A DNA stretch of 64,000 bases from Branchiostoma lanceolatum (taxonomy: Eukaryota > Chordata > Leptocardii > Amphioxiformes > Branchiostomatidae). Each line of letters opens with the position of its first letter. Position 1 is the first letter of the stretch. The stretch spans positions 12,243,698 through 12,307,697 of the forward strand of contig NC_089739.1 in the NCBI RefSeq assembly GCF_035083965.1. Reading direction: 5' to 3'. The notes beneath the pieces were generated by a model. The model was not told the origin of the DNA and did not search any database. It saw only the letters and a list, made by a program, of their open reading frames with translations. Shown one piece after another: positions 55,701 through 64,000 of the stretch. The position numbers and the translations under genes are program-made.

Positions 55701-58700
55701 TTTTTTAAGTTTTAAAAAAAATAATGTAGGTGCATAGCTTCCATTTCATTAGACACTTGTGCGTATATCACGTCCGTATGAGTTGCCTATTGACATTTTT
55801 TTTTGGTTTAGGTCAAGTTTACGACCGAGGAAGTCGTTTTCGTTGATTCGATAACCAGACTGCACAACGGTGGGTCAAAGTAAAAGAAGCAACTTCTTCC
55901 CCGCAAACTTTACCTAGTCCAAAATACGTCAATACTGAACTCAAACGGACGTGATATACGCACAAGTGTGATAGATAGGGTTATAATTCGACTTACGTGT
56001 GCACGTAGGAACATCGTTATTCCATGATCCGTCAGTTTGGCACGTCGTTGTTCCAGCGCCGTTCCGTGTGTATCCCGCGTTACAGGTGAACGTCACCGTG
56101 GCCGGGTAGGCGTGTGGTCCGGCAGGGCTTAGTCTTCCGCTAGCAGGGGGCGTCAACGTCTGACATGGTCTGGCTGAAATGATGAAACATTCTTCGTCAA
56201 GAGCCTTTGATTGTTTAATCTGATTTTGAAATTATGAAGCCTTTATCGTTATGATCCATGGAGCTACATTAGTCGGCGAGAATCTGTACGCAAACTTTTA
56301 AGCATAGAAAGAATAACACATTTTTCTAAGGACCCTTATCCAGAGATAAGTACGTAGCTTCCATTTTATTAGAAACATGTGTGTATATCACGTCCGTCTG
56401 AGTTCCATATTTACATTTTTTGGTTTAGGTAAAGTTTACAGCCGAAGAAGTCTTTTTCGTAGATTCGATAACCAGAATGCACAACGGAGGGTTTATGTAA
56501 AAGCAACTTCTTCCCCGCAAATTTTACCTAGGCCAAAAGACATCAATACGGAACTAATACGGACGGGATATACGCACAAGTGTGATAGATAGGATTATAA
56601 TTCAACTTACGTGTGCACGTTGGAACAGCGTTATTCCATGATCCGTCGGTTTGACACGTCGCATCAGCAGCGCCGTTACGTACGTATCCCGTGTTGCAGG
56701 TGAACGTCACCGTGGCCGGGTAGGTGTGTGGTCCGGGAGGACTCAGCACTCCGTTAGCTGGGGCCGTCAACGTCTGACATGGTCTGGCTGAAATTATGAA
56801 AAATTCTTCGTCAAGAGCCTTTGATTATTTCAATTAAGAAATCTTTATCATTATGATCCATGGAGCTACATTAGTCTGCGAGAATCTGTACGCAAATTTT
56901 TGAGCATAGAAAAAACAACACATTTTTCTAGAGACCTTTTCCAGAGATACATTTCTAAGGTTTAAAGAAAAATAATGTAAATGCATAGTTTCCATTTTAT
57001 TAGACACATGTGCGTATATATATCACGTTCGCATGAGTTCTCTATTGACATTTTTTGGTTTAGGTAAAGTTTACAGCCGAAGAATTCTTTTTCGTCGATT
57101 CGATAACCAGACCGCACAGCGGTTGGTTAATGTAAAAAGGCAACTTCTTCCCCGCAAATTTTACCTTGGCCAAAAGACGTCAATACCGATCGAACTCATA
57201 CGGACTTAACATACGCACAAGTGTGATAGATAGGATTATAATTCAACTTACGTGTGCACGTTGGAACAGCGTTACTCCATGATCTGTCAGGTTGGCACGT
57301 CGTAGTTTCAGCGCCGTTACGTACGTATCCCGTGTTGCAGGTGAACGTCACCGTAGCCGGGTAGGCGTGTGGTCCGGGAGGACTCAGCTCTCCGTTAGCT
57401 GGGGGCGTCAACGTCTGACATGGTCTGGCTGTAATGATCAAGAACATTTGCTATGAGGATCGATATTCGAAGTGAAAATTAATAATAAGTTTATTGCAAG
57501 TTCTTGCCCGTAGGCTAATTGCAAGTACATGTAACATGAAAGAACGGACAGACACTATATAACAATACAGCAAGTAACTTTTCTAGTCTAAATACTAACA
57601 CTTAATTCTATCTTATTCGGGTTTGACTTCTTTTTCCGAGACAATGGAAGACGAAAGATCCCACTTTTTCTAGAATATGTGGGTTTTGTGATGTTAAGAG
57701 GAGAGTAGTTTTCCTTTTGTCTGTTAACATGGAGAAATTAGGATATGTAGTAAACTACATCTGTTCACCAACTTTTAGATTGAATGCTGAAAAGTCAGTC
57801 ACACATTTTCCTTCTAATACTTTTCCAGTATATATATAGTCATATATTGTACAATATGAAAACAAAAATAATAATTTCATACCGGTACAGCTAACACCGT
57901 CGCCGCTGTAGCCTGAGTTACAATCACAAGTAAAACTGCCGGGTATGTTGCGACAGGTGGCTAGGGGACTGCAGTTGTTGGTGCCATCTGTACATTCGTC
58001 ATTATCTAAACGGGAAAAATAGTAAGAAAATTTCTCATAACAAAATATCGCATGAAATGTGGCTTTATCACAATTTACTAAAGTCAACTCTATGCAACTT
58101 GCTGAATTTTCCGAATAACACCGTCGAAAACATGGTAAAGGAACAAGTGGGGATTGCACCGTTAAGGTGTACGAAAAGACAGTTCTCATGACAAAACATA
58201 CCTGTTTCACAATGATCTCCTTCATAGCCAGCAGCACAGGTACAGGTGTAGCCGTTAACCTCGTCCTCGCAAGTTCCGCCATTTTCACACGGATCAGAGG
58301 CACATTCGTCGACGTCTGCAACGACATACAAGACGGTCTTTGAAAGGTCTTCAATAAAAAATATTCAGCATTTTGAAATCAAAAGCTATGTCAAATCTTA
58401 TGACTAGATTTTGCCAGCTTTTGAATCTTCCAGTAACAAAAACGTCTTTACTTGTCAAAAATAAATGGCCGGAAACTTGCTGACTTTTCCTAATAACACT
58501 GTCCAAAATAGATAAATGAAGAACTGGGGTGTGCACCGTTAAGGTGGACGATAAGACAGTTCTCATGACAAAACTTGCCTGTTTCACAATGATCTCCTGC
58601 ATAGCCAGCAGCACAGGTACAGGTGTAGCCGTTAATCTCGTCCTCGCAAGTTGCGCCATTTTCACACGGATCAGAGGCACATTCGTCGACGTCTGCAACG

Positions 58701-64000: not shown

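Follow-up and report, generated by a model that had tools for sequence, protein, structure and literature searches.

Duplication of a GC-donor exon best explains eleven GC-AG introns in an EGF exon array of Branchiostoma lanceolatum

How does a rare splice donor come to follow 11 of the 13 exons of a single array, and does its presence there make splicing adjustable? Both questions are raised by an array of EGF exons in a 64,000-nucleotide stretch of the Branchiostoma lanceolatum genome (contig NC_089739.1, positions 12,243,698 to 12,307,697), hereafter the window. GC-AG introns account for 1.3% of about 2.46 million introns in 61 species (PMC3033335), and primate and rodent genomes show 298 changes from GT to GC against 40 in the opposite direction (PMC2490688). 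Alternatively spliced genes have been described as enriched in GC donors (PMC2490688), and human GC-AG introns as preferentially involved in alternative donor events (PMC7242645). Tandemly duplicated exons, for their part, are reported in about 10% of animal genes (PMC9013439). Judged from its sequence, the feature studied here is best explained as the duplication of an exon whose GC donor was already spliceable.

On the minus strand from 62724 to 58202 lie 13 EGF exons, each exactly 114 nt long, in phase 1 at both ends, directly preceded by TTGCAG and coding for one EGF module. Eleven are followed by GCAAGT (CAG/GCAAGT, the slash marking the exon end) and two, E10 and E13, by GTATGT (CAG/GTATGT), and 11 of the 13 introns that follow array exons combine GC at +1/+2 with AG at the 3' end. 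The spacing between copies is 225-273 nt, and the introns that fill it are related in sequence. The motif ACAGGCAAGT occurs 11 times in the window, always on the minus strand and always inside the array, against 0.20 occurrences expected from shuffles. The exons, numbered from the 5' end, are as follows.

62611..62724, minus strand: EGF exon E01, donor CAG/GCAAGT, GC at 62609-62610
62235..62348, minus strand: EGF exon E02, donor GCAAGT
61861..61974, minus strand: EGF exon E03, donor GCAAGT
61522..61635, minus strand: EGF exon E04, donor GCAAGT
61141..61254, minus strand: EGF exon E05, donor GCAAGT
60800..60913, minus strand: EGF exon E06, donor GCAAGT, identical to exon E07
60459..60572, minus strand: EGF exon E07, donor GCAAGT
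60085..60198, minus strand: EGF exon E08, donor GCAAGT
59711..59824, minus strand: EGF exon E09, donor GCAAGT
59334..59447, minus strand: EGF exon E10, donor GTATGT (GT)
58966..59079, minus strand: EGF exon E11, donor GCAAGT
58579..58692, minus strand: EGF exon E12, donor GCAAGT
58202..58315, minus strand: EGF exon E13, final array copy, donor GTATGT (GT)

The coordinates and counts given for the array in the initial annotation (13 exons, 11 with GCAAGT and two with GTATGT) are exact to the base. The exons were located by a pattern fixed at both ends, which a strongly diverged extra copy would escape; reading of 57000-64000 revealed no further array copy except a distant EGF exon at 58005-57883.

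This distant exon and five Sushi exons extend the array into a chain of 19 exons (one Sushi, 13 array EGF, one diverged EGF and four Sushi; 2490 nt), all in phase 1 and with zero stops. The donors of the six non-array exons are all GT. Features of the gene outside the array are listed below.

63033..63209, minus strand: Sushi exon on the upstream side of the array, in phase 1, with donor ATG/GTACAA (Pfam PF00084; boundaries set by eye)
57883..58005, minus strand: diverged EGF exon downstream, donor CCG/GTATGA (EGF read from the cysteine pattern)
57252..57428, minus strand: first of four downstream Sushi exons, donor CAC/GTAAGT, 92.1% identical to the second
56611..56787, minus strand: second Sushi exon, donor CAC/GTAAGT (Pfam PF00084)
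55997..56173, minus strand: third Sushi exon, donor CAC/GTAAGT, 85.9% identical to the second
55358..55534, minus strand: fourth Sushi exon, donor CAC/GTAAGT, 96.6% identical to the second
53177..53716, minus strand: REJ reading frame downstream of the array (PF02010, E 6.4e-20, 71.6 bits, cut-off 25)

When exons were omitted one at a time from the chain, stops arose in 0 of 19 cases, and the earlier expectation that skipping any array exon keeps the frame is borne out. The initial annotation had also proposed that exon duplication spread a GC donor through a single gene. This holds for the array and not for the neighbouring exons whose donors were placed: the six other chain donors and the inferred donor of a Thr-rich exon are GT. 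The four downstream Sushi exons form a second, smaller tandem array (55358-57428; four 177-nt exons, 84-97% identical, donors all CAC/GTAAGT), a GT-donor counterpart to the EGF array within one gene.

The gene looks like a PKD1/REJ-type receptor. A further REJ piece at 50840-51208 scores just above the threshold (E 7.6e-6, 25.2 bits, cut-off 25) and a weak one at 49214-49519 falls below it (E 0.008), as does a GPS profile match (14.7 bits, cut-off 22.5). A scan of 14 gene-side stretches, out of 154 on the minus strand with at least 45 aa, gave no PLAT or channel match. From strand, order and phase we infer that the EGF array and the REJ exons belong to one transcript, and the gene seems to extend at its 5' end beyond the window. 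A 36-nt tandem repeat with Thr-rich coding potential occupies 63620-64000 and continues past the window edge; it is perhaps a mucin-like stalk of the array-bearing protein. At 52545-53101, adjoining the REJ frame, lies a minisatellite with a 10-nt unit (GACACGGTAC) and a 112-nt higher-order repeat.

At the protein level the six cysteines are invariant across the array modules and 11 of 38 residues vary. With two joined copies of one module as the query, PF07645 and PF00008 were matched above their cut-offs, and the nearest solved structures by sequence were Notch 1 and Delta-like 1 (9b3n, E 8.1e-54; 4xbm, E 5.2e-51). The array modules are thus like Notch and Delta EGF repeats in sequence and unlike them in gene architecture, being combined here with Sushi and REJ domains. 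All 13 modules carry the six cysteines together with D-x-D-E / C-x-D-x4-Y-x-C, the motif of a calcium-binding EGF domain, and all 13 carry O-glucose and O-fucose motifs. The N-glycosylation sequon N-C-T/S is present in five (E03, E06, E07, E08 and E10) and absent from the other eight, and array copies may therefore differ in N-glycosylation.

To what extent, then, are the 11 GC donors copies of one another? Pairwise identity among the array exons is 92-100% (mean 95.7%), and introns I01-I12, each numbered after the exon that it follows, differ by 12.6% without I10 and by 15.4% with it. Neighbouring units are homologous in both exon and intron and share one phase, as tandem duplicates do; I01-I12 can be aligned, I10 poorly in mid-intron. 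Since the units are copies of one another, the 11 GC sites count as one event or a few and not as eleven, and a probability calculated on independence (1.4e-19 for 11 of 13 at 1.3%) was set aside because array copies are not independent. The most divergent intron and the two edges of the duplicated unit are located as follows.

62725..62817, minus strand: 5' edge of the duplicated unit, the array-like last 93 nt of the intron before E01
59080..59333, minus strand: intron I10, with a GT donor; no array intron diverges more (27-32% from its 11 counterparts among I01-I12)
58096..58201, minus strand: 3' edge of the duplicated unit, the array-like first 106 nt of intron I13

The remainder of I13 (58006-58095) gave no match to the array. 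In the intron before E01, a degenerate 16-nt repeat (CCGAAATCCCTATGTT-like) at 62818-62925 abuts the edge of the duplicated unit. Reading on from E10, intron I10 contains no in-frame stop, unlike the other 11 inter-exon introns, and its 254 nt would shift the frame.

Within the array, 61331-60691 and 60990-60350 are 97.2% identical across 641 nt, and the four-gamete test fails for 13 of the 36 pairs of informative sites in the exons, an outcome that recurrent mutation could also cause. Together, the long match and the four-gamete failures suggest exchange or repeated duplication among the copies.

In the reading that we consider probable, an exon with GTATGT founded a tandem array in a PKD1/REJ-like gene, and within this array a GC donor was multiplied by duplication and exchange and is spliced mostly constitutively by the U2 machinery. 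The donor of the founder exon would have been GTATGT; one copy would have gained A at +4 and then C at +2, giving a CAG/GCAAGT site that still paired well with U1. Duplication and exchange between copies would then have taken the GC donor into 11 units, without any selective advantage being required for the GC state. The ordinary U2 spliceosome would remove the GC introns, for the most part constitutively, and the product would be a series of 13 Notch-like EGF modules; DNA copy number, rather than splicing choice, would mainly set the length of the stalk. With GC donors at about 1%, large genomes would be expected to hold some arrays founded or taken over by such a donor.

The order of events in this account depends on which donor came first. 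Among 214 ungapped columns that take in the exon and its surroundings, from 40 positions before it (-40) to intron position +60, only T at +2 and T at +4 set E10 and E13 apart from the other 11 copies; since nothing else is shared by these two alone, retention of an ancestral double state is simpler than two parallel double changes. GTATGT looks ancestral also by its placement, being kept in the boundary copy E13 and beside the most divergent intron, I10, although the long branch of I10 could reflect replacement or fast change instead of age. On a 13-unit tree built with the donor bases left out, in which several inner nodes have support of 14-47, the GT labels take 2 changes to explain, compared with 1.96 when labels are shuffled. 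A grouping of the GT copies on this tree was accordingly rejected as no better than chance; a 12-unit tree contains one GT copy only and is uninformative on the point.

A possible, if clearly less probable, order is the reverse one, in which GC was the ancestral state of the array and GTATGT arose once and then reached a second unit through exchange. Most copies carry GC, exchange among them is likely, and the failure of the GT copies to cluster beyond chance is compatible with such a transfer. The exchange tract would, however, have to be very short, as E10 and E13 have in common only +2 and +4 of the 214 columns; GT also sits in the copy at the array boundary and in the one next to the most divergent intron, and the six other donors of the chain are all GT.

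A founder with GTATGT leaves the question of whether plain duplication was the agent of spread. In the eight long GC units (all but E03, E05, E06, E10 and E13), variable columns number 13 of 114 in the exon and 60 of 259 in the intron (Fisher p 0.010). Lower variability of exons would fit exon-centred exchange, and hence the idea that GC-biased gene conversion turned donors from GT to GC across existing copies. We regard this as unlikely: the exon-intron difference is not significant when the 12 fourfold sites are taken alone (p 0.31), the change from T to A at +4 does not raise GC content, and the direction of changes is unreadable without an outgroup. Protein-level constraint was considered as the cause of the low exon diversity and set aside. 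With all 13 exons taken together, variation is about as frequent at third positions (4 of 37) as at first and second ones (11 of 76), and pS and pN are close (0.037 and 0.044). The fourfold comparison gives no significant difference.

At all 11 GC sites, and likewise at the array GT sites, 8 of 9 positions match the U1 consensus CAGGTAAGT. The predicted energy of U1 pairing, a crude proxy that ignores any extra cost of C at +2, is -7.4 kcal/mol for the array GC donors and -8.3 kcal/mol for the array GT donors. By the same measure the four downstream Sushi donors reach -5.7, the diverged EGF exon -4.4 and the upstream Sushi exon -4.1 kcal/mol, so that the GC array donors are predicted to pair more strongly than the six other donors of the chain; the inferred GT donor of the Thr-rich exon, at -7.5 kcal/mol, equals them. 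In E01, E02, E10 and E13, from exon start to about 70 nt past the exon end, no other GT or GC was found that pairs better than -4.2 kcal/mol.

The introns that begin with GC are invariant from +1 to +9, while 86 of their 224 gap-free columns vary (38%). Nine-column windows without change number only 13 of 177 in these introns, and those away from the donor are found at alignment columns 205-221 and close to the acceptor. Such invariance would be expected if the GC donor is in steady use or if it merely lies close to a homogenised exon, and constitutive and regulated use are indistinguishable by it. Together with the open 19-exon chain, it lends indirect support to splicing at these GC sites. 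The consensus fold of the introns gave no sign of conserved structure, with none of 35 predicted pairs changed on both sides.

These results bear on a functional role for the GC donors, by which they would be slower than GT, would let the number of EGF modules be adjusted by splicing and would have been kept by selection in 11 copies. Several observations are in keeping with it. Every one of the 13 exons is of phase 1-1, and removing a single one introduces no stop. The donor shows no variation among 11 copies, and an enrichment of GC donors in genes with alternative splicing has been described (PMC2490688, PMC7242645). In C. elegans the GC donor of let-2 intron 10 is needed for regulated splicing (PMC2490688, PMC7242645), and GC-AG introns are reported to be over-represented among those recently gained in segments that are repetitive and undergo much alternative splicing (Zhuo et al. 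2007, via PMC7242645). On the other side, the GC sites are predicted to pair with U1 nearly as well as the array GT sites and better than the six other chain donors, phase-1 symmetry is common to all 19 chain exons and nothing special to those with GC, any donor in use would be invariant, and the introns lack pairs changed on both sides. The same GCAAGT in GNAI1 intron 6 is conserved and reported to promote splicing and not to be involved in exon skipping (PMC5896119). We therefore judge a functional role rather unlikely, and the suggestion that GC donors make splicing of the array tunable is not supported by the features examined here. An extension of this idea, in which the GC donors of the whole array stand under one splicing control and the GT exons E10 and E13 serve as always-included anchors, is improbable. 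If it were true, the 13-EGF stalk would become shorter or longer through one change in factors that are related to U1 or sensitive to +2.

A sequencing or assembly artefact, in the form of wrong donor bases or a wrong copy number, is very improbable. Assembly easily collapses or expands tandem arrays, and the identity of E06 and E07, together with the 97.2% likeness of their surroundings across 641 nt, is of the kind that could mislead it; the donor is nevertheless repeated in 11 units with introns that vary at 86 of 224 gap-free columns, and the GC call is thus not a single error. Mutually exclusive use of the exons as in Dscam, with one or few per transcript, is suggested by near-identical tandem exons of one length and is the least credible reading of all, given that the adjacent modules are also EGF and Sushi in the same phase, which makes serial inclusion natural, that alternatives would differ little with only 11 of 38 residues variable, and that a mechanism via paired intron elements was rejected on the 0 of 35 predicted pairs changed on both sides.

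Duplication of an exon with a usable GC donor relates the array to several described systems. In CAG/GCAAGT, 8 of 9 U1 matches and the TTGCAG acceptor, its introns resemble other U2-type GC-AG introns; those are elsewhere single, whereas here one donor recurs in 11 sister introns of one array. GNAI1 intron 6, with the same hexamer, is a single intron without an array (PMC5896119). The recent human tandem-array introns of Zhuo et al. 2007 likewise place GC-AG in repetitive segments (via PMC7242645), but are described as intron gains, while here an existing exon was duplicated with its introns. As in let-2 intron 10 of C. elegans (Farrer et al. 2002), a GC donor stands beside an exon of potentially variable inclusion; in let-2 regulation was demonstrated by donor replacement (via PMC2490688, PMC7242645), and the present array is known from sequence alone. 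Sea urchin SpREJ proteins of the PKD1/REJ family share the REJ domain, and SpREJ1 has one EGF domain (PMC1934368), in contrast to the 13-EGF array and the Sushi exons found here; the terms 'sushi' and 'CCP' are absent from the main text of that paper. Among the matches listed from the open-licence literature, no title or start of an abstract reports GC donors multiplied in an exon array.

The interest of the array is as a natural comparison of GC with GT. If transcripts confirm the donors, a single gene would offer 13 near-identical exons that share one acceptor end and whose only consistent donor differences are at +2 and +4, and the array would measure the in vivo cost of C at +2. It would also illustrate that exon duplication alone can multiply a rare splice signal, without selection for regulation.

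Elsewhere in the window, no known RNA families were detected at gathering scores. Reading frames of the interferon-inducible GTPase family (PF05049) are present on the minus strand at 14184-15134, 19581-20534 and 24802-25749 and on the plus strand at 31322-31693 and 33030-33461, forming a local gene cluster that spans 14184-33461.
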